From: Candidatus Pacearchaeota archaeon
Lineage (GTDB): Archaea; Nanoarchaeota; Nanoarchaeia; Pacearchaeales; GW2011-AR1
NCBI GenBank assembly: GCA_002690445.1
Contig: NZER01000230.1
Coordinates: forward strand, 1 to 24,920
Direction: 5' to 3'
Length of the DNA: 24,920 nt
Position numbers and translations under genes: made by a program. The notes beneath the pieces were generated by a model. It had not been told where the DNA came from and ran no database searches. It saw nothing but the letters and a program-made list of their open reading frames with translations. Below, in pieces: positions 2,840 to 16,355 of this stretch. The first letter of the stretch is position 1. Each line of letters opens with the position of its first letter.

Positions 2840-3463
2840 CTAAAGAGAGTGCCAATATTCAAGAGCATAGTTATAGGCGACCAAAGGGTCGCCGCCCCAA
2901 GTCAAGCTTAGTTGGTGAACCCTCTCCATCATCCTGACCGGGTCGTCCTTATCGGCATAGGCGTGGCTATCCGTCTGAACGGCCAAGTTAAGACTTTCCT
3001 GGTACGTTCGACGGCCTTCTGCCAACCGGGCGGCTACGGCCGGGTCGGGCCGGGGCCGGGAGCGGGAGTCGTATGTAAAGATTTTCCCGTTCGGCATAGC
3101 CTGATTCCAGGTATCGAAAAGGCCGTGGGTCTTCAAGTCATCCCTAAGATTCTCGACCTGGGAGGCGGTCCAGCCACCATGATCAAGATGGTGGTAAAGA
3201 AGCCGAGCTAGTCCAGTGAGCCGGTGAACGTGTGCTTGAGAACCGGTAAAGGCGTCGAGGAGATATTCAACGGCCTCGATGTCATCATAGCGATAAGGCA
3301 CCTCGCATTGACCACAAAAGGTGGGCTCACTGAGGCGGGGGATAGTTTCATCGTCGCACCGGGCGCATTCCCGCATCTCCGGCGGCGGCTCTGGGTCGTT
3401 GTGCTCGTTTTCTAGGCGAGTTTCGAAACTCCGCAAACTTGCCTTGTTTTTATTGTTCATCAT
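2840..3463 (-). CDS. Hypothetical protein with N-terminal C4 zinc knuckle
   Basis: A 207-residue protein, last gene of the leftward operon. Residues 33-53 hold C33-x2-C36 and C50-x2-C53, a likely zinc ribbon. The rest is helical and acidic to neutral, with a His-rich stretch around residues 77-95 (AHVHRLTGLARLLYHHLDH). Two adjacent ATG codons are possible starts (3463 and 3460); AAAGGA lies about 11 bases upstream. The gene overlaps the upstream RHH-like gene by 14 bases, so they are probably co-translated. I do not recognise the family; a nucleic-acid or protein-binding role is only suggested by the zinc knuckle. Confidence 0.7.
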   Translation of the reverse strand: MMNNKNKASLRSFETRLENEHNDPEPPPEMRECARCDDETIPRLSEPTFCGQCEVPYRYDDIEAVEYLLDAFTGSQAHVHRLTGLARLLYHHLDHGGWTASQVENLRDDLKTHGLFDTWNQAMPNGKIFTYDSRSRPRPDPAVAARLAEGRRTYQESLNLAVQTDSHAYADKDDPVRMMERVHQLSLTWGGDPLVAYNYALEYWHSL

Positions 3464-3704
3464 TTCTGGGGTTATCCTTTTCTTTCATCCAAGTTTCGAA
3501 GTCTGAACTCGGTGTCACATTGCCACCCTGTTCTAGGAATTTGGCTATTTTTTCTTTCGCCGCAGATTTCTCCAGTAAGTCGTCCAGAGCGCATCTTACG
3601 AATTCTGATACTTTAACCCCCTCGAATAGGGCGGCGGCTTTTAATTTTCTTTTCGTTCCTGGCTCAAGTCGAACAAGGAGACTTTCTGTTTTATGCTTCG
3701 TCAT
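3450..3704 (-). CDS. Ribbon-helix-helix-like DNA-binding protein
   Basis: An 84-residue protein. Residues 6-50 fit the ribbon-helix-helix pattern: a short strand (SLLVRLEPGT), a basic helix (KRKLKAAALFEG), a V-S/E-F turn and a second helix (SEFVRCALDDLLEK). RHH dimers, such as CopG and MetJ, bind operators with the strand. The remaining 34 residues form a charged tail that could bind a partner protein. The start codon overlaps the stop of the upstream winged-helix-like gene (TAATG). No toxin gene is evident next to it, so a transcription regulator is more likely than an antitoxin. Target unknown; palindromes in this window (see 5939-5948) are candidates. Confidence 0.65.
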   Translation of the reverse strand: MTKHKTESLLVRLEPGTKRKLKAAALFEGVKVSEFVRCALDDLLEKSAAKEKIAKFLEQGGNVTPSSDFETWMKEKDNPRNDEQ

Positions 3705-4327
3705 TACGACGGCCTTTCTGAATAAAATTCCTCTATTGTCCCATCTTCGCGGATTACTATTGCGGATGGGGGTGGTGCCCCATAAAAATCCGCCATTGCA
3801 GCGAGTTGGGCTTTAAAAATATCCAAGGTTAAACAGACCGCGATATCTTGGTCGCCCTCTGCGAATGTCACGATGACGCGCTCCTCCGCGTTCACCCAGA
3901 TCCCAAAATGGGAAAAGTCCTGGTCGGTGTCATACTGAACCCACCCTTTGCCAAGGCTCCCGTCATAGTGATACCTGCTCCTGCTCATGTGGAACGAGCG
4001 CATCAAGATAGCCCCCGTATCGGTCACTTCAACCATGAGCCGCCATCGGTTAGAGCTTGGGTTCCAGTGAACAAGGTGATTTCTTTCTAGGTCCGAGAGC
4101 GCTTCCGAATAGGCCTCAGAATGATCCCCTCGGGGGTCGCAAACGTCTAATCCGGTCGCCCAAACGAGGTCGTCGGGGCACTTTGGCCCTTCCCTGAGCT
4201 GAGTTAATATTTTGAAAACGTATTCATCCCGCAAAGCGATGAATGTTTCCTGACAAAATTCCGAGTCAAATTCGCGATAGCAAAATGGGACTAGGGGGGT
4301 TGGTAATAAGTTTTGAATCTTTTTCAT
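3704..4327 (-). CDS. Hypothetical protein with winged-helix-like N-terminal half
   Basis: A 207-residue protein beginning MKKIQNLLP. Residues 34-110 read like a winged helix-turn-helix: a helix (DEYVFKILTQLREGP), a second helix after CPDDLV, a recognition-like helix (SEALSDLERNHLVHW) and a wing (NRWRLMVEVTDTG). This is followed by a beta-rich C-terminal part of unknown kind. The ATG sits 5 bases from the repeated leader TAACTCAACCAAAGGA (4333-4348). The gene is followed without a gap by the RHH-like gene. It may be a regulator of phage or host genes, but no family was recognised and the fold call is by eye. Confidence 0.6.
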   Translation of the reverse strand: MKKIQNLLPTPLVPFCYREFDSEFCQETFIALRDEYVFKILTQLREGPKCPDDLVWATGLDVCDPRGDHSEAYSEALSDLERNHLVHWNPSSNRWRLMVEVTDTGAILMRSFHMSRSRYHYDGSLGKGWVQYDTDQDFSHFGIWVNAEERVIVTFAEGDQDIAVCLTLDIFKAQLAAMADFYGAPPPSAIVIREDGTIEEFYSERPS

Positions 4328-5340: not shown

Positions 5341-5904
5341 TTATAATTCGCAGGTGCATCCAATACGATTGCAATCCCCGCAAGGTCGGCAAATGCAGTT
5401 TTCGCATTCGCAATTATCGCAAAGGTGGCAAGTGCATCCGGAGGCGGGGTTGTCGCAAAGGTCGCAAAGTTCGTTACCAAAGTTAAGTCGTTCCCAGATG
5501 CGAGTCTCGTCGGCATAGCCAAAGGCATTGTTGCTAAAATAAAGCATAGTTCGTCGGCCGCCGATTTTCTTTTCCTCCGCTTCAAATTCGATGTCGATCT
5601 TTACGATGGTCAATGCTTCGCCATGTAGAGAAATCTTTTTCCCAAGATATTCGTCTTTGGCTTCGGCATAGGCCTTGTCATATTGGGCGGCGGCTTCCGC
5701 GAGGTATCTTTCTTTCGAGTTCCGGTATTCCAAAGCGGCTTTTCCGGGGCTGTCGTTAAGCGGGTTCTTCGCGGCATTTCTTGCGGATACCATCGCGGCA
5801 TACTTCTCGGTTTCTGATTCCCAATTAGCGGCGTCAGTAGGATAAGCGGCCTGTTGCTTACGGTGGAGGCGTTGTTCAATCAGGGTTTTTTCTGGCTTGT
5901 TCAT
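5341..5904 (-). CDS. Helical protein with a 13-cysteine metal-binding-like tail
   Basis: A 187-residue protein; the ATG at 5904 follows leader copy 5. The frame extends to 5949, but the extra codons cover the leader and part of the promoter and are rejected. Residues 1-95 are charged and helical (Ala, Glu, Lys, Tyr rich). Residues 96-140 look like a small beta domain. Residues 147-187 hold 13 Cys in 41 positions in CxxC, CxC and CxxxxCxC spacing (for example CDNCECENCICRPCGDC). Such density suggests several zinc sites or a metallothionein-like cluster. I do not recognise the family. It is the first gene after the 5.94-kb promoter and may be among the earliest leftward products. Confidence 0.7.
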   Translation of the reverse strand: MNKPEKTLIEQRLHRKQQAAYPTDAANWESETEKYAAMVSARNAAKNPLNDSPGKAALEYRNSKERYLAEAAAQYDKAYAEAKDEYLGKKISLHGEALTIVKIDIEFEAEEKKIGGRRTMLYFSNNAFGYADETRIWERLNFGNELCDLCDNPASGCTCHLCDNCECENCICRPCGDCNRIGCTCEL

Positions 5905-5913
5905 AGCGGTTTT

Positions 5914-5929
5914 TCCTTTGGTTGAGTTC
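5914..5929 (-). promoter_or_regulatory. Repeated translation leader, copy 5 (first base changed)
   Basis: GAACTCAACCAAAGGA on the minus strand, then AAAACCGCT and the ATG at 5904. It differs from the consensus only in the first base. Confidence 0.7.
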
Positions 5930-5936
5930 ATACTTA

Positions 5937-5965
5937 ATTGTATATACAAAAGAGCTCAATAGCAA
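5937..5965 (-). promoter_or_regulatory. Sigma70-like promoter overlapping palindrome TGTATATACA
   Basis: On the minus strand TTGCTA (5960-5965) and TACAAT (5937-5942) are spaced by exactly 17 bases. The palindrome TGTATATACA (5939-5948, extendable to TTGTATATACAA) covers the -10 region, a usual place for a repressor site. The 19 bases GAGCTCTTTTGTATATACA recur on the plus strand at 13423-13441. It would drive leftward transcription of the small-gene block from 5904. A weak GGGG/CCCC hairpin (5965-5982) upstream may end transcription from the 6032-6796 gene. Confidence 0.55.
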
Positions 5966-6031
5966 GGGGAACCGCTACCCCTAAAGGTAATAAAGGGGGG
6001 CAGAAACAGGGGTTTAGGACCGAGATGTACG

Positions 6032-6796
6032 TTACTTGTTACGCTCTAACTCTTGAGCAATAATCCCGCACCCAAGCCCACAGCTGATGGGTGGCTCCTT
6101 CAAAAAGTTTCCGGCACTTGGGTCTAGCTGGTCAAGGTATAGCGGGGAGCCGTCCGAGTTTTTAAACAAGCTATATTCCAACTCCCGTTCAATCTCTGAC
6201 ATCGTTTTAAAGTGTTCAGGGAAATGCACGCGGATCTTGTTCCAATACCCGCGCCCACCACGGACGCACCCCACGCAATTATTATGATTCATTTCAAGCG
6301 GGGGGAGATACATCGCAGGGATCTCAAGACCTTCCTTCCACAGAAGCCCGAGGCAATCTTCCTTGGAAACATCTTTGCGGATCAGAATCCAGTCTGTGGC
6401 AAGCTCGAAGTTGTATTCGTTGAAGCGTTTAGCGCGTTCTTTCTCTTCCACCGTATAGCCAAAGATGTGGATATCATCCGGTCGTTGGAATTCATAACGG
6501 CACTTCTTTTTCAACTCGACAGTGCACATCGCTCCCCTGTGTGATTTAATGTATTTTGTTTTTCGATAGACATCGAAGTGGTCAACAAAGCCCTTCTTGT
6601 TTTTCAGGATAAGAATCTTTCGCCCTACCCACTTTTCGACATCTAACAGAAATTTCTTATTCGATGGGTGCTCACCCCCTGTGTCGCAATATGCGATGAC
6701 GCACCGGTCTCCATATTCTTGAACCGCTAACTTTGCCGCCACCGCAGATGCCGCCCCACAGGAAAACCAGACTACCACCCTCGGTTTGTCGCTCAT
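6032..6796 (-). CDS. PAPS reductase/ATP pyrophosphatase-family protein
   Basis: A 254-residue soluble protein. The N-terminal PP-loop S12-C-G-A-A-S17 with the following YCDTGGEHPSN (residues 36-46) is the nucleotide-binding signature of the PAPS-reductase/ATP-PPase (CysH-like) family. C91, C174-x2-C177 and C239-x3-C243 add Cys pairs that could bind metal or an Fe-S cluster, common in phage members. Relatives act in sulfate reduction, tRNA or DNA thiolation and other adenylation reactions. The phage substrate is unknown, and DNA or RNA modification is one possibility. SD GAGAGGTGG precedes the ATG. The gene is 14 bases downstream of the VRR-NUC gene. The family call is firm, the reaction is not. 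Confidence 0.8.
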   Translation of the reverse strand: MSDKPRVVVWFSCGAASAVAAKLAVQEYGDRCVIAYCDTGGEHPSNKKFLLDVEKWVGRKILILKNKKGFVDHFDVYRKTKYIKSHRGAMCTVELKKKCRYEFQRPDDIHIFGYTVEEKERAKRFNEYNFELATDWILIRKDVSKEDCLGLLWKEGLEIPAMYLPPLEMNHNNCVGCVRGGRGYWNKIRVHFPEHFKTMSEIERELEYSLFKNSDGSPLYLDQLDPSAGNFLKEPPISCGLGCGIIAQELERNK

Positions 6797-6810
6797 TATG
6801 CCACCTCTCT

Positions 6811-7269
6811 TTATTTATCTAGACCAAGCCAACCAGCGACCAGCTCAATGGCTTCGTCGGCACCGTGGGCGAATGATGAAAACCATCCCCAAGTATTGAA
6901 GTTGGCCAACCACCTTTTCTGTTCCTTTGGGTGGCTGTAGTATTTTCGGCGTTTAAGCTCGACGGCTATGCCCGGAGCGCCACAGGGCGGCCGAGGCCAA
7001 AAGATAAGAAAATCCGGGAACCCTTTCTGGCTCCCCCCTTCGCTGAAAAGAGCTTTGCCAGTATGACCGGATCGCTTCCCTTCGTTCGGCACGTGGGTGA
7101 ACCCTATCCCTTTGGAATTCATCCACGCGACGAAATCACGGGCTTCTTCCCACTCGTAAGGGACGTCGAGCCTCTTTCCCTGTTTCTTCGGGATCTGCTT
7201 TCTATAGAAGCGAAGGATAGACCGTTTGGTGCTTTCTTTGCGTTCCTCCTCTGGAGATTTATCGCTCAT
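6811..7269 (-). CDS. VRR-NUC domain nuclease
   Basis: A 152-residue protein. The core of a PD-(D/E)xK nuclease of the VRR-NUC type is visible: N62-E63, G83-F-P-D86, then V103-E104-L-K106 and Q117 in HPKEQKRW, followed by helices. E63, D86, E104 and K106 would form the metal site. VRR-NUC enzymes cut branched or flap DNA, including Holliday junctions in phage versions. The ATG overlaps the stop of the upstream 50-residue membrane gene (TGATG). It fits with the RecT and Cas4-like genes upstream as part of a recombination or replication-repair set. Confidence 0.85.
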   Translation of the reverse strand: MSDKSPEEERKESTKRSILRFYRKQIPKKQGKRLDVPYEWEEARDFVAWMNSKGIGFTHVPNEGKRSGHTGKALFSEGGSQKGFPDFLIFWPRPPCGAPGIAVELKRRKYYSHPKEQKRWLANFNTWGWFSSFAHGADEAIELVAGWLGLDK

Positions 7270-10884: not shown

Positions 10885-12642
10885 TTACATAATGTCCTTC
10901 GACCCCTCTAACCAATCCGTTTGATATCTTAGTTTTACTTCGAAACAAAAGTTCCCGTTGTATTTCGTAGCCCTCCGTTCGACTCCGTCGATGGCTTCGA
11001 GGCGTCGATAGAAGTTACGGTTCCCCATTCCTCGCCGCCCTGTATTCTTAGCGAACGTCTGGAACGCATTGTGGAGGTCTGGCTGTTTTTCGATACCGCT
11101 TTTGAATTGTCCGTTCTCATCTTTAGCGAGACAAGAATTAGCGAAGTCATTAACCGAGTCGGAGTTTTGAGCCCAATCCTTCATCGCGGCATTGTGGCTC
11201 GAAAGCTCCGGATACTTACCCCTCGCCATTAGTTCGGCACAGGCCCAAACTAGACGTTGAACAATCTCGTGTCTGACCTCCATGATAGAATCGACGATCT
11301 GGTCGGCCTCCCTATAGCCCGGAGTGCTGTGGCTCCATCGCTTCCCAAACTTAATCAAAATGAAACGCCGATAAAAACCGGGCGATTGGTCAGCGGCGGG
11401 TGGGAGGCTGTTGCAGGATAGGATATGCCCGGCCTCCGGCCTGAATGAAAAGCTATCCCCCCCTTTATACTCGCCGCGTATCAAGTCGCCGGTTACGGCA
11501 CTTTTAAAGGTGTCGCTTTTGAATACAGACCCCTCGTCTAGCTCCGTTACTAGATTTATTTTCTTCCCCATCAAATCCACGGTCCCGAAGCGACCCCACG
11601 TGTCTGGGCTGGTGACCGTCACGTCTCCCGCATTGAAAAGGCGGCGGGCTATTTCCATGAAGAGGCTTTTCCCGTTCTCCCCGGCCCCTTCGAAAACAAC
11701 CACTTTCTGATAACGAGTCGCTAGTCCACAAAGCGATGCTCCGAGAAATTCTTCTATTGTTTGAACCTTGGCCGCCGCGTCTTCATCGCCATCGAATAAG
11801 GAAACCATATAGTTGTGCCACGCGGCGGGGGCATTTTTTTCGCTTCGTAGGTTTACAACCTCGGTCAGCTTTGGCCGGGGCGTTGGTTTATTATACGTGT
11901 GGCGCTTAAACTCTTCAAAGCCCGGTGCCATGTAGCGAACCATCCCGTCTTTGCATGGCATGTGAATCAATGTCTGCTTCACCGAATAGGACGGGTCGCG
12001 CTTCGGCTGGAGGTTGGTTAAAAGAACAACCCCCGGAACCTCCTCCACGAAAGGGCTGGTCTCGTGGATAATCGAATGGTCGTTGGTAGCCATAAAGTCG
12101 AGCGCTAGAATGTTACGCTTGTTCATGGTTATGGTTTTCCCGGTGGAGGTAGTGTCGCCATCCCCCGCATCGAGTCCGTGGAGCAGCCTGAAAAGGTAAT
12201 AACGCTCCGGTGCCTCTGCTCGCTTCCAGATCCCCAAGTTGCTCTGGTAAAGCCACAGACCCCCTTCGGTGATAATTGGGGCGGCCCCGTTTTGTCTCTC
12301 CCACCCGGCCTTGACTATTTGCCATAAATCAATTTCGTCATTGTACTTTACCACCCGCAGCGGGATTCCGTTGTCGTCGACCTCCTGAATGTACTCTTCG
12401 AAAAATGCGATTAGCTGGCGCTTTCGAGCGGTGTCTCTGCTCCATGCTCCGAGCGATGGGATGGGGTGGGACGGCCCGGTTTCCTTGTCCTTCTGCCCCC
12501 ATTGCGGTGGGCAATTAAAGCCGGGGTCTTCAAGTAAATCGTGTTCAATCCAGTCGTCCTCCTTTAGATGATTAAGCCCCCGAACGTTGCTTTGTGCTTT
12601 GCCCCTCGTAACCTTCACCCTTCGCCCCGACTCCTGCTTCAT
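10885..12642 (-). CDS. D5-like SF3 replicative helicase
   Basis: A 585-residue protein; the ATG at 12642 follows GGGAGG by 9 bases, while a TTG at 12693 lacks an SD. Residues 140-300 resemble the D5 N-terminal domain. The SF3 AAA+ core shows Walker A G319-AGENGK-S326, Walker B NLVTELDE (363-370), sensor-1 N411 in HILSCNSLPP and arginine fingers R425-R426. Such helicases form hexamers that unwind DNA at phage and plasmid origins. No archaeo-eukaryotic primase or Toprim motif is visible in the first 140 residues, so it seems to be a helicase without a fused primase. The C-terminal part has a winged-helix look (GNRNFYRRLEAIDGVERR). The neighbouring repeat-rich region is a natural loading site. 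Confidence 0.9.
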   Translation of the reverse strand: MKQESGRRVKVTRGKAQSNVRGLNHLKEDDWIEHDLLEDPGFNCPPQWGQKDKETGPSHPIPSLGAWSRDTARKRQLIAFFEEYIQEVDDNGIPLRVVKYNDEIDLWQIVKAGWERQNGAAPIITEGGLWLYQSNLGIWKRAEAPERYYLFRLLHGLDAGDGDTTSTGKTITMNKRNILALDFMATNDHSIIHETSPFVEEVPGVVLLTNLQPKRDPSYSVKQTLIHMPCKDGMVRYMAPGFEEFKRHTYNKPTPRPKLTEVVNLRSEKNAPAAWHNYMVSLFDGDEDAAAKVQTIEEFLGASLCGLATRYQKVVVFEGAGENGKSLFMEIARRLFNAGDVTVTSPDTWGRFGTVDLMGKKINLVTELDEGSVFKSDTFKSAVTGDLIRGEYKGGDSFSFRPEAGHILSCNSLPPAADQSPGFYRRFILIKFGKRWSHSTPGYREADQIVDSIMEVRHEIVQRLVWACAELMARGKYPELSSHNAAMKDWAQNSDSVNDFANSCLAKDENGQFKSGIEKQPDLHNAFQTFAKNTGRRGMGNRNFYRRLEAIDGVERRATKYNGNFCFEVKLRYQTDWLEGSKDIM

Positions 12643-12669
12643 TGCTTTTAGCCTCCCGCTAAATAAAGA

Positions 12670-12738
12670 GCCGCCCCGACTTTGTGGATACAAGGAAACC
12701 GACGCAGATGTGCGTGGGGGTTTTGTAATCGGGGCGGC
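12670..12738 (-). promoter_or_regulatory. Structured 5' leader of the helicase gene
   Basis: GCCGCCCCGA (12670-12679) and TCGGGGCGGC (12729-12738) form a perfect 10-bp inverted repeat. Inside it ACGCA (12702-12706) and TGCGT (12711-12715) make a second small stem. In the minus-strand transcript the structure ends about 15 bases before the SD GGGAGG and is followed by CTCTTTATTTAG. It could be an attenuator, a translation control structure or part of the origin. No known riboswitch is recognised. Confidence 0.4.
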
Positions 12739-12921
12739 CCTAAACTAATTTCGAATGGTTTTTTCGTATCCCGTATCCACGAAGTCACACTAGAGGAACC
12801 AGAGAGGGAAATCCAGAAATTCGCGGCTTATTTTAGGGGTGGTTGTACGCGGAGAAGCATGGGGAAAAAGAACCCCAAAACGGGGTCAATTAAACCCATG
12901 TGACAAGTGACAGTTGTGACA

Positions 12922-13020
12922 GTTACAATAACCCCCCCCCCATTATCGTAAGAATTCAAAAGCCCCCCCCCCTTTCGACACGACAGGTAATGGGTTTTTG
13001 AATTACAATAACCCCCCCCC
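12922..13020. repeat. Three poly-C tracts with direct and interleaved inverted repeats
   Basis: Runs of 10, 10 and 9 C lie at 12932-12941, 12963-12972 and 13012-13020. TTACAATAACCCCCCCCC occurs twice (from 12923 and 13003). AATTCAAAA (12953-12961) pairs with TTTTGAATT (12996-13004), and CCCATTA (12939-12945) with TAATGGG (12988-12994); the pairs interleave. The minus strand carries G runs that could form quadruplex-type structures. Gene-free. Lengths of long C runs may be affected by sequencing. Confidence 0.6.
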
Positions 13021-13042
13021 TATTACCTAAAAACCGGCCCAA

Positions 13043-13068
13043 CCGTCCCATCCGTCCCATCCGTCCCA
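13043..13068 (+). repeat. Three tandem CCGTCCCAT units
   Basis: CCGTCCCAT, CCGTCCCAT and CCGTCCCAA follow AAACCGGCCCAA. The block resembles the CCGGCCCAA triplet inside the 13859-14203 gene (14104-14132). It lies between the poly-C region and the 10-bp array. Confidence 0.6.
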
Positions 13069-13120
13069 AACACATGGCCCTTATTGGGGCAGATTGGTCC
13101 CATTAAAGGCCATGAGTCTA

Positions 13121-13420
13121 GATAGCCGGGGATAATCCGCGGAATGTCTGGATAGTCCAGGACAGTCCAAAATAGTCCGAGCGGTGTCTGGGTAGTCCAA
13201 GATAGTCTAAGACAGTCCAAGATAGTCTAAGACAGTCCAAGATGGTCTAAGACAGTCCAAGATAGTCTAAGACAGTCCGAGATAGTCCAGGATAGTCCGA
13301 GCGGTGTCTGGATAATCCAGGATAGTCCAAAATAGTCCAAGATAGTCCAAGATAGTCCGGGCGGTGTCTGGATATCTGGGGATAACCTGGGAAATGTGGG
13401 GATAACCTAGGGAATGTCTG
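13121..13420. repeat. 10-bp phased tandem repeat array (iteron-like, 30 units)
   Basis: Thirty successive 10-base units sit in one unbroken register. The core consensus is GATAGTCCAA, with C/T and A/G variants (GACAGTCCAA, GATAGTCTAA). A second unit type, GCGGTGTCTG or GGAATGTCTG, recurs at 13141, 13181, 13301, 13361 and 13411, so the array is hierarchical. Similar 25-base edges, GGGGATAA-n5-GGAATGTCTGGA, mark both ends (13128-13152 and 13398-13422). TTATCCCCA, one change from the DnaA box TTATCCACA, appears on the minus strand at 13377-13385 and 13397-13405. No long frame crosses it. Best guess: replication-origin iterons for a phage initiator; a centromere-like or repressor array is possible. 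Confidence 0.85.
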
Positions 13421-13422
13421 GA

Positions 13423-13441
13423 GAGCTCTTTTGTATATACA
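13423..13441 (+). promoter_or_regulatory. Operator-like site, second copy of GAGCTCTTTTGTATATACA
   Basis: Nineteen bases identical to the minus-strand promoter region at 5939-5957, including palindrome TGTATATACA. It starts three bases after the last array unit. Here the -10 would be TACAGG, a poor match, so the shared part is more likely a protein-binding site than a strong promoter. Confidence 0.5.
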
Positions 13442-13442
13442 G

Positions 13443-13536
13443 GGGCCTTACACCAAAGGGGGGTCAGAATATGTCTAGGCTGGACGTTTTTCTTGTAGCG
13501 GAAGCGCGAAAAGTACGTTTCCTTCCGCTACTTTTT
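13443..13536 (+). ncRNA. Possible short terminated transcript or attenuated leader
   Basis: Between the operator-like site and a strong terminator lie about 50 bases with no convincing gene. A transcript starting here would be under 100 nt. A 30-codon frame (13471-13563, GGGGGG before its ATG) runs through the terminator and could be a leader peptide. Existence of the RNA is inferred only from the arrangement. Confidence 0.25.
13495..13536 (+). terminator. Strong rho-independent terminator or attenuator in the divergent region
   Basis: GTAGCGGAAG (13495-13504) pairs perfectly with CTTCCGCTAC (13522-13531), a 10-bp stem followed by TTTTT (13532-13536). No plus-strand gene of normal size lies upstream, so it ends either a short RNA or rightward leakage from the array. 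Confidence 0.75.
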
Positions 13537-13580
13537 AGCTACACCGGCCGCCCTATGTTTTGACAATCTGGTAGCGTTCA

Positions 13581-13614
13581 TAGCTAAAGGGTAGCTAATA
13601 TTTCCCTTTAGCTA
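13581..13614. promoter_or_regulatory. 11-bp inverted repeat TAGCTAAAGGG / CCCTTTAGCTA
   Basis: A perfect 11-bp inverted repeat with a 12-base spacer. The related octamer TTAGCTAC or its complement occurs at 13535, 13591, 13608 and 13765. A TTGACA (13560-13565) lies just upstream with a poor -10 overlapping the repeat. It looks like an operator cluster controlling rightward genes. Confidence 0.45.
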
Positions 13615-13858
13615 CAAAGCAAAGCCACTGAAATTGTTAAGGTTTTTCCTGTTTAGGGGAGTAAGTAGCTTAATTCTCTAACTCATAAGAAAAGAAAGAT
13701 AAGTTATCAAAAAGAGTAATGATTTCAGGAAGTGGGTTACGTTTATTTAGCAGTGGGTGAGATTTTAGCTACAAACTCCCCACACCTGAAATACCTGGAG
13801 CCGCTTGCATCGTTCTTATAAATAGGTCTTAGGAATTCAACCTTAAGGAGAAGACGAA
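13615..13858 (+). other. AT-rich gene-free stretch before the rightward genes
   Basis: From about 13621 to 13760 the sequence is clearly AT-rich compared with its surroundings, which suits a duplex-unwinding element next to the repeat array or a promoter region. TATAAAT at 13818-13824 could be a -10, but no good -35 is 17 bases upstream. AAGGAG lies 9 bases before the ATG at 13859. Nothing else recognised. Confidence 0.4.
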
Positions 13859-14203
13859 ATGACTAAGCAATTACCCGCCGGATGGTCCACCGATGACGTA
13901 TTAGCCCTTCCCGAAGTTCAAGAAGCCATCGAAAAGGCGAAGCATCAAGCGCACGAAGTCTGTGGGCTATGGCTCGACAGTGGGAAGGGATATATGAGCG
14001 GAATGCAAGGGAAAATGAAGTATTGGGTGTTTAAAAACAAAACCAAAGAGCAAGGCTCCAACCAACCCGATTATCACCTATGTGTATCCAAGCTACCTAA
14101 GAAACCGGCCCAACCGGCCCAACCGGCCCAAAGTCGTTACTCTAGCCCGATGCAGGTAGCAGACTCCCAAGCCCGAGCCCCTTATAACGATGTGCCTTAT
14201 TAG
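13859..14203 (+). CDS. Hypothetical protein with SSB-like linker and acidic-aromatic tail
   Basis: A 114-residue protein with AAGGAG 9 bases before its ATG, first gene of the rightward operon. Residues 1-35 are helical (EVQEAIEKAKHQAHEV). Residues 50-78 look beta-like (KMKYWVFKNK, then PDYHLCVSK). A PAQPAQPAQ linker (83-91) follows, then a flexible tail ending YNDVPY. An ordered domain, Pro/Gln linker and terminal D-x-P-aromatic recall the C-terminal tip of single-strand DNA-binding proteins (DDIPF), which recruits partners. The front part is too short for a normal OB fold, so this is a suggestion. It is the gene nearest the putative origin. Confidence 0.6.
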   Translation: MTKQLPAGWSTDDVLALPEVQEAIEKAKHQAHEVCGLWLDSGKGYMSGMQGKMKYWVFKNKTKEQGSNQPDYHLCVSKLPKKPAQPAQPAQSRYSSPMQVADSQARAPYNDVPY

Positions 14204-14295: not shown

Positions 14296-15579
14296 ATGCA
14301 AATTCAATCTGTGCCGATCAACGACCTGGTTTTCGACCCGGCGAACGTGCGTACCCACGACAATAAAAACATCGACGCGATTATGGGGAGCTTGGCCAGG
14401 TTTGGCCAGCAAAAACCCATCGTCGTCAACGCCGAGGGCGTCGTTATAGCGGGCAATGGTACGCTCGCGGCGGCGAAAGCGTTGGGATGGACCCAAATAA
14501 ACACGGTGAAAACCGAGCTTGTGGGATCCGACATAACCGCCTATGCCATTGCAGACAACCGCACCGCCGACCTCGCTGATTGGGATGACGGTGCTTTGGT
14601 TCAAGTATTGGCCGCGCTTGAAATAGAGGACGAGGCTTTATTGGCCGCCGCCGGATTTAGTCCCGCAGAGCTAGAAGCTTTGGTGAACGAAACATCCGGG
14701 ATGGAAGAGGAAGGCGAGCCAACGATACCACTGGCCGACCAGTTCGTAGTTCCCCCTTTCACCGTTCTTGATTCAAGACAGGGATATTGGTTGGACCGGA
14801 AGAGGCATTGGCGAAGCCTGATTAAAGATAATTGTGAGACACGGGAATCGGCCTTGGGTTGGTCTACTTTATTGAATGTGATCAACGAAGGCGGGAGCTT
14901 ACTTGACCCGGTGTTGGCTGAACTGATTGTGCGATGGTTCGGGATGGAGGGTGGTCATTGTGTTGACCCTTTCGCGGGGGATACTGTTTTCGGCTATGTT
15001 GCCTCGGCCCTTGGTCATAAGTTTACAGGGATTGAGATTAGGGCCGACCAAGCGGCCCTCAACAACGAGCGCACCCCGGACCTTGCAGTTTACCACAATG
15101 ACGATGGACAGAATGTGGGCCAGTATCTCGAACAGCAAAGCACCGATCTGGTGTTTAGTTGCCCGCCTTATTTCGACCTGGAGGTTTATAGTGATGACCC
15201 CAAGGACGCCTCCAACCAGGGGAGCTACGGTGAATTTCTCGACATCCTGGACAATGCTTTCGGGGCGGCGGTGGCGACGCTAAAGCACAATCGCTTCGCG
15301 GTTATCGTGATTGGGGATGTGCGCGACGAAAAGGGGGCTTATCGATTGCTCCCTGATATGACCAAGACGATTATGACCGGTCATGGGATGGTGCTGTTGA
15401 ACGAGCTTATATTTGTCGAGCCCGTTGGAACGCTATCCCAACGGGCTCGGCGCTATATGCGAAACCGGAAGGTGGGGAAGTGCCACCAGAATGTTCAAGT
15501 CTTTTACAACGGCAACCCCCAAGAGGTTGGCAAGCACTTTCCGGAGGTTCCGATTAATGTTGGCGAAGATATGGAATAG
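14296..15579 (+). CDS. ParB-domain DNA methyltransferase
   Basis: A 427-residue fusion. Residues 1-95 are a ParB/sulfiredoxin-like domain (PINDLVFDPANVRTH, then V50-I-A-G-N-G-T-L-A-A-A-K-A-L-G64, where ParB normally has Arg at the Thr position). Residues 150-420 form an amino-methyltransferase: SAM motif D224-P-F-A-G228 and catalytic C289-P-P-Y292 (the S/D/N-PPY motif of N4-cytosine or N6-adenine enzymes, here with Cys first). The linker V157-L-D-S-R-Q-G-Y-W is shared, from memory, with actinophage ParB-methylases. It would methylate phage DNA, probably against host restriction; no restriction enzyme is adjacent. The start is 6 bases after a small hairpin. The speD-like gene overlaps its end. 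Confidence 0.88.
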   Translation: MQIQSVPINDLVFDPANVRTHDNKNIDAIMGSLARFGQQKPIVVNAEGVVIAGNGTLAAAKALGWTQINTVKTELVGSDITAYAIADNRTADLADWDDGALVQVLAALEIEDEALLAAAGFSPAELEALVNETSGMEEEGEPTIPLADQFVVPPFTVLDSRQGYWLDRKRHWRSLIKDNCETRESALGWSTLLNVINEGGSLLDPVLAELIVRWFGMEGGHCVDPFAGDTVFGYVASALGHKFTGIEIRADQAALNNERTPDLAVYHNDDGQNVGQYLEQQSTDLVFSCPPYFDLEVYSDDPKDASNQGSYGEFLDILDNAFGAAVATLKHNRFAVIVIGDVRDEKGAYRLLPDMTKTIMTGHGMVLLNELIFVEPVGTLSQRARRYMRNRKVGKCHQNVQVFYNGNPQEVGKHFPEVPINVGEDME

Positions 15580-15905: not shown

Positions 15906-16355
15906 ATGACGAAAAAGCGGAGGGGGCGAAGGGTCAAGCTAACCGAGCAGGTTATGGACGCTTTTATCCAGGCCATCAAGCTCGGCTGTCCCAACAAAGA
16001 CGCGTGTGGCTGTGCTGGAATTTCCGAAACAACTTTCTATAGATGGATGGAATGGGCCGACTCGAAACGCAAAGATGCCAAGGTATATCAGGAATTTCGG
16101 GAGCGTATAAAAGAAGCCGAAGGTCAAGCGACCCAACGGTGGCTCGCAATAATCGAAAAAGCGGCTCAAGCGGGGCAGTGGCAAGCGGCGGCGTGGAAGC
16201 TAGAACGAAGACGAGCGATGTTTATTCCTAAAGTGAAAGCGGAGGTTGAGGCGAAAATAGATGGTAGGGTTGAGGTCAAAGATGCCCGAGAAAGAGTCTT
16301 GGATAAATTGGCTGTGCACGCAGAGCGAATCCAAAAGACAGAGAATAATCAGTAG
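15906..16355 (+). CDS. terS: Terminase small subunit
   Basis: A 149-residue basic protein. Residues 12-52 form a helix-turn-helix typical of phage small terminases (VMDAFIQAIKLGCPNKDACG, then ISETTFYRWMEW), followed by a charged helical region (YQEFRERIKEAEGQ) and an oligomerisation-type part with WLAIIEKAAQAGQWQAAAWK. It recognises phage DNA and loads the large subunit. The large-subunit gene starts inside its 3' end. It follows the speD-like gene by 22 bases. Confidence 0.88.
   Translation: MTKKRRGRRVKLTEQVMDAFIQAIKLGCPNKDACGCAGISETTFYRWMEWADSKRKDAKVYQEFRERIKEAEGQATQRWLAIIEKAAQAGQWQAAAWKLERRRAMFIPKVKAEVEAKIDGRVEVKDARERVLDKLAVHAERIQKTENNQ

Follow-up and report, generated by a model that had tools for sequence, protein, structure and literature searches.

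In the SaPI Rep/primase-helicase systems and in satellite phage P4, which encodes the alpha protein, an SF3/D5-type helicase is found beside an origin with non-coding short repeats and AT-rich DNA. Iterons of RepA_N satellites are treated in PMC7145576. Short repeats also serve in partition. A review (PMC5016525) describes binding of one ParR dimer to each parC iteron, repeats of 10 bp, and a left-handed helix of the pSM19035 protein omega that wraps around parS sites with 9, 7 and 10 iterons.

Our analysis concerns a phage stretch of 24,920 bases, termed the window, that contains 30 in-register units of 10 bp. The 300-bp array is confined, within the phage, to a non-coding junction (12694-13858) that separates a leftward and a rightward gene block (Table 1). 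Genes for the SF3-type helicase, an exonuclease-type protein, RecT and others form the leftward block, whereas the rightward block encodes a 114-aa protein, a ParB-like/methyltransferase protein, terminases and head proteins. A preliminary description had stated that the helicase gene is transcribed away from the array, which agrees with its position on the minus strand. We tentatively regard the array as an accessory, multi-site protein-binding array that is lineage-specific and lies in a divergent control/replication junction; we consider this reading quite possible, though short of an even chance.

Across 13131-13420, identity is 0.593 at a lag of 10 and 0.663 at a lag of 20, whereas the maximum for lags 1-44 in 1000 mononucleotide shuffles is 0.364. 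Among 290-bp windows that start outside 12800-13500, the best lag-10 value is 0.32. All successive spacings of repeated 10-mers (100 of 100) are multiples of 10, as is every spacing of the 21 repeated 20-mers, and TRF assigns periods of 10, 20, 40 and 60 to the array. The earlier claim of one strict 10-bp register over 300 bases is therefore upheld. The purity of units that it implied is not, because GATAGTCCAA is exact in only 2 of the 31 units in 13121-13430 and is matched at six or more of ten positions in 22 of them. Units with TGTCTG do interrupt the array at multiples of ten, as had been described, with GCGGTGTCTG at 13181, 13301 and 13361 and GGAATGTCTG at 13141 and 13411, and the two 25-base edges are indeed similar. 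Partial self-complementarity, of the kind often seen in sites for dimers, centers on unit positions 4 and 9, where 0.48 and 0.40 of arm pairs, respectively, are complementary.

Table 1. Features of the window, with counterparts in the relatives L002 and L018.
Feature	Position	Strand	Remarks
84-aa candidate ribbon-helix-helix (RHH) protein	3450..3704	-	weak family matches, below Pfam cut-offs
SF3-type helicase, DUF5906 / D5-like, 602 aa from TTG	10885..12693	-	transcribed away from junction
Stem-loop leader before helicase	12660..12790	-	L002 counterpart 5865-6010: like predicted shape, different letters
Element A, terminator-like hairpin	12858..12903	-	43/46 identical to L002 5109-5154, inverted there
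Promoter-like site ending TACAAT	12900..12929	+	C10 run next, 12932-12941
Second promoter-like site ending TACAAT	12980..13009	+	C9 run next, 13012-13020; TTACAATAACCCCCCCCCT exact in L002
Element B, long hairpin CATGGCC..GGCCATG with flank	13041..13115		62/75 identical to L002 5582-5656, inverted
10-bp tandem array	13121..13420		30 in-register units: GATAGTCCAA-like core and TGTCTG interrupter units
Left edge element GGGGATAA..GGAATGTCTGGA	13128..13152		21/25 identical to right edge
Two TTATCCCCA sites, 13377 and 13397	13377..13405	-	one mismatch to DnaA box; both in in-register units
Right edge element	13398..13422		21/25 identical to left edge
Element D, CATATTCTG-N-CCCCCC	13428..13477	-	kept in L002
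Element E, dyads 13495-13531 and 13591-13615	13495..13729		counterparts in L002 and L018
AT-rich stretch, 34-39% GC	13601..13800		GC content
114-aa protein, first gene of right block	13859..14203	+	56-57% identical in L002, L018

A scan of a viral contig collection with the helicase produced one close relative, L002, whose helicase is 78% identical. When the query was an alignment of five helicase sequences, four distant relatives (L004-L007, 24-30%) were added. A short-period array comparable to that of the window is missing from the stretches fetched for these, of which those of L005 and L007 are short; over 150 bp and lags 6-25, their best lag identity is 0.40-0.43. Additional near relatives are represented by proteins (P0001, P0002, P0003, and P0011, which is listed on 5 contigs). 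Scans with the large terminase and with the 114-aa protein each returned L018 and L002. Because the L018 contig starts inside the first dyad, to the right of the array's place, the array comparison is with L002 only (n = 1).

L002 retains the divergent gene order and the junction. No 10-bp array was detected there by TRF, and blastn against L002 4901-6150 (word size 7, E up to 10) aligned no piece within 13121-13420. The preliminary description had named relatives that keep the helicase but lack an array at the divergent junction as evidence against its proposal, and this is largely the situation in L002, the sole evaluable close relative (1/1). L002 instead carries five copies of the 9-bp ACACTACAA, and L018 carries three copies of the 9-bp ACGCTACAA, in both cases near the 114-aa gene. 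Like the window array, these are short-period repeats in the same junction, but they differ in unit, in period and in their position near the right-hand gene. A single motif like them occurs in the window at 13768. The L002 record, at 25,736 bases, seems to be incomplete, as it lacks counterparts of several of the window's head genes. The array gave no blastn match in INPHARED phages or PLSDB plasmids, and our literature search found no directly comparable case.

Several other elements of the junction have counterparts in L002. The 46-base element A precedes the helicase operon in the window and, inverted, the 114-aa/terminase operon in L002. Element B was considered as a widely dispersed element, a view that was rejected when its 19-base core was found in the viral contig collection only in the L002 record. 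Promoter and terminator counts in the junctions of both phages are within shuffle expectation; the two promoter-like sites of the window compare with a shuffle mean of 1.6 and are weak alone. AT-rich promoter-like stretches lead straight into runs of 6 to 10 C on both strands (12923-13021 and 13458-13463), with counterparts in L002 at 5563-5571 and 5743-5749, and transcription may start within these C runs. The stable stem-loop predicted in the helicase leader has no Rfam match at gathering score, and the 114-aa protein has no Pfam or PHROG match. The N-terminal part of the ParB-like protein (14296-15579 in the window, 3448-4653 in L002 and 728-1501 in L018) is 74% identical over 138 aa between the window and L002. 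Beyond this part, the proteins of the three phages diverge: methyltransferase families match along those of the window and L002, and that of L018 has no methyltransferase match there.

The divergent gene blocks, the adjoining SF3-type (DUF5906) helicase and the cumulative GC skew, which is lowest at ~13079, make the junction a plausible origin or regulatory region. To this extent the earlier proposal of an origin of unusual design is retained, whereas the 10-bp array as that origin is not, given its absence from L002. GC skew had been suggested as a check, and its minimum does fall at the junction. However, divergent transcription alone predicts such a minimum. DnaA-box-like sites had been noted at the right end of the array, and TTATCCCCA is present there twice; with the DnaA box taken to be TTATCCACA, the window contains nine matches with no more than one mismatch, four of them within 12683-13405. 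A DnaA-dependent origin was rejected, since none of the three one-mismatch boxes in the 13.8-kb locus of L002 lies in its junction.

On the basis of the comparison with L002, the origin candidate shifts to the conserved right-hand part of the junction (~13490-13800), which, if there is an origin here, is more likely than the array to contain it. Dyads and clustered RCTACAA/TTGTAGY motifs in this part are common to all three phages. It holds three of the five such sites of the window (at 13493 and 13611 in association with element E, and at 13768), 12 of 15 in L002 and 7 of 10 in L018. A block at 13516-13729, which overlaps the AT-rich DNA, is 64% identical to L002 by blastn and 58% by MAFFT without gaps. 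The AT-rich stretch that had been placed directly after the array exists, but it is ~180 bp from the array end, and 13401-13600 has a GC content of 46-47%. If the binding site of the initiator is conserved with the initiator, that site would be the right-hand block. The array is probably an optional add-on and not the core origin.

Searches for the unit itself produced candidate arrays elsewhere. Degenerate three-unit patterns detected L003 (IMGVR_UViG_3300020112_000447) and a short run of TAGGATAATC units in L017, and a two-unit pattern detected L003, L008, L009 and L010. The L003 array (6699-6858) has the same consensus unit as that of the window. Like the window array, it is phased at 10 bp and is interrupted by other sequence before the units resume, but it spans only 160 bp, contains one +1 phase step and lies between two gene 3' ends instead of at a promoter. 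It begins ~45 bp past a gene with weak Arc-like matches, and on its other side is the 3' end of an SSB gene. The two arrays have 9 distinct 16-mers in common, compared with 0 in each of 500 column-permuted controls; of 10-mers, however, the arrays share 32, and one control came close with 31. Because L003 was found by searching for the unit, this match is not independent. The phages are otherwise different: with a limit of E up to 0.05, the helicase of the window has no match among L003 ORFs, and of the 34 window ORFs 2 have any L003 match, both weak. The L003 array has no match in plasmids. A phage record from human faeces contains a related SSB region, and the stretch of it that was read has no such array.

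L008 has a degenerate 10-bp-phased array at 3780-4120 that is rich in CCGAACC-type units and has no match in phages. An ORF resembling a serine recombinase by eye is located ~1.3 kb away. In a genome contig collection, three consecutive units were found in six stretches (L011-L016), all from one Rhodobacteraceae MAG and all with one repeated flank. This repeated element, by eye an insertion-sequence end, has three GATAGTCC-type repeats of 10 bp close to its boundary. Arrays of GATAGTCC-type units in the window, L003 and perhaps L008 might constitute a recurring, undescribed class of phage DNA site that is coated by one widespread oligomerising protein, phage- or host-encoded, to give a long nucleoprotein filament for replication, segregation or control. 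We consider this reading improbable.

Other explanations of the array were also weighed. If its units were true initiator iterons, the C-terminal DNA-binding domain of the SF3 helicase would bind them and melt AT-rich DNA to the right. The adjoining helicase gene, the AT-rich DNA, the TTATCCCCA sites and the skew minimum fit this arrangement, although divergent transcription would give the same minimum. The helicase has sequence similarity to 7ola, the primase-helicase of SaPI5 (E 3.3e-15). The overall quality of its fold model is poor (mean pLDDT 46.8), and its fold matches serve only to show consistency with helicases of the D5/SaPI5 type; nothing useful came from searching the PDB with its final 96 aa by themselves. 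The C-terminal domain is modeled with moderate confidence (10-residue block pLDDT of 69-83 over residues 511-590), and the order of its helices and strands could correspond to a winged helix in which GMGNRNFYRRL may be the recognition helix. However, this segment is identical in the helicases of L002, P0002 and P0003, and the junction of L002 has no such units. The helicase gene is adjacent, as in an SF3-helicase iteron origin, but conservation of the repeats with the initiator is not observed (L002, n = 1), and we judge initiator iterons unlikely, though a serious alternative. A packaging start site wrapped by a small terminase ring faces the same objection. The small terminase gene is ~2.5 kb to the right (15906-16355), but L002, where the junction lacks the array, has terminases that are 83% (small) and 85% (large) identical to those of the window. 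A pac site was therefore rejected, and the chance that it is correct seems minimal.

The array might instead have no function. Replication or recombination would have duplicated a short non-coding stretch in increments of 10, 20 and 60 bp, and the copies would then have diverged by point mutation. Its longer periods (20, 40 and 60) remain visible, it is missing from the L002 junction, and the tandem repeats of L002 and L018 show that such repeats in this junction vary in number and letters. Its mutations also resemble those of its surroundings. When the 6 of 30 units with TGTC or ATGTG are left out, the remaining 24 differ from GATAGTCCAA by 40 transitions and 4 transversions, with no gaps; in the neighboring block, L002 and L018 are separated by 31 substitutions (25 transitions and 6 transversions) with a single gap position, and the window and L002 by 90 substitutions, again with a single gap position. 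The idea that selection maintains a purine/pyrimidine pattern was accordingly rejected, the 40:4 ratio being near the 25:6 of the local background in sister phages. Helical phase as proof of function was also rejected, as this background itself has 1 gap position per 31 substitutions. Because the neighboring block is nearly gap-free, duplication and mutation of the local type would preserve the register, and strict phase is no proof of function. As to the earlier suggestion of a site wrapped once per helical turn, a 10.0-bp phase drifts by ~497 degrees along 290 bp at the 10.5 bp per turn of relaxed DNA, on which the units would not keep to a single face. Against neutral expansion, the array sits among conserved control-type elements, and the same consensus unit is present in L003, a different phage, a coincidence that by arithmetic would need ~4^10/20, or ~52,000, ten-bp arrays in the collection. 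We regard neutral expansion as somewhat unlikely but as a serious alternative. Finally, the array could act as RNA, with a plus-strand leader that folds into a long imperfect hairpin. Promoter-like sites do lie to the left of the array, and plus-strand folding is favored over minus-strand folding both here (z = -3.96 versus -1.72) and in L003 (z = -3.23 versus +0.38). However, equal or greater stability was reached by 27 of 100 controls re-dealt within columns and 18 of 100 with permuted column order, and by 30-32 and 61-83 of 100 controls for the L003 array. These column-preserving controls identify the fold as a consequence of repeating a unit that is partly self-complementary, and structured RNA was rejected. 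No Rfam family was found at gathering score in the window, L002 or L003, and we hold an RNA role to be very improbable.

The accessory binding array that we tentatively favor would function as follows. An oligomerising DNA-binding protein, either host-encoded or encoded by the phage and not shared with L002, would bind the partly palindromic units side by side. The resulting extended nucleoprotein complex could then modulate the divergent promoters, help to open neighboring AT-rich DNA, or both. The origin proper, if it is here, would more likely reside in the conserved right-hand part, with its dyads, AT-rich DNA and RCTACAA motifs, and the SF3 helicase would serve as initiator. A binding array is consistent with the partial self-complementarity of the units, with an array that is real and restricted to a junction that L002 keeps without it, with the recurrence of the unit in L003 just past a weakly Arc-like gene, and with RCTACAA/TTGTAGY sites that, in each of the three phages, cluster in the junction's right-hand part. 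On the other side, the L003 array is not at a promoter and was found by its unit, the register can arise without selection, one close relative was compared and the binder is only a candidate. That candidate, the 84-aa protein, is a speculative choice suggested by its weak family matches. Its sole notable match in L002's record (E of about 3e-5, 32% over 47 residues) is within a 922-aa ORF and covers the tail of the 84-aa protein, outside the RHH-like part. Its single-sequence model is all-helical and of low confidence (mean pLDDT 53.9) and gives no support for an RHH fold, which counts against the candidate.

If the array does bind an oligomer, its ~30 contiguous 10-bp sites would be a long natural template on which to watch the growth of a phage protein filament, and the presence of the array in one phage and its absence from a sister offer a ready comparison. 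A neutral array would instead be a useful caution that helical phasing does not necessarily follow from a strict 10-bp register, even one of 300 bp. In either case, the likely origin moves to the conserved block at ~13490-13800.

As in SaPI Rep/primase-helicase and P4 alpha systems, an SF3/D5-type helicase is located here beside non-coding short repeats and AT-rich DNA. Unlike the repeats of those replicons, the array is a putative binding site, is made of ~30 contiguous 10-bp units and is absent from a relative with a 78%-identical helicase. The array was also compared with RHH partition sites. No motor ATPase or filament gene was recognized beside the array among the nearest genes (helicase, 114-aa protein and ParB-like/methyltransferase protein), and no adjacent operon of binder and motor or filament was found among them. 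The number of units, ~30, and the distance of ~9.4 kb to a weakly supported candidate RHH gene likewise differ from such sites. What the array does have in common with RHH centromere and operator arrays, such as parC/ParR and pSM19035 parS/omega, is its organization as contiguous short direct repeats.
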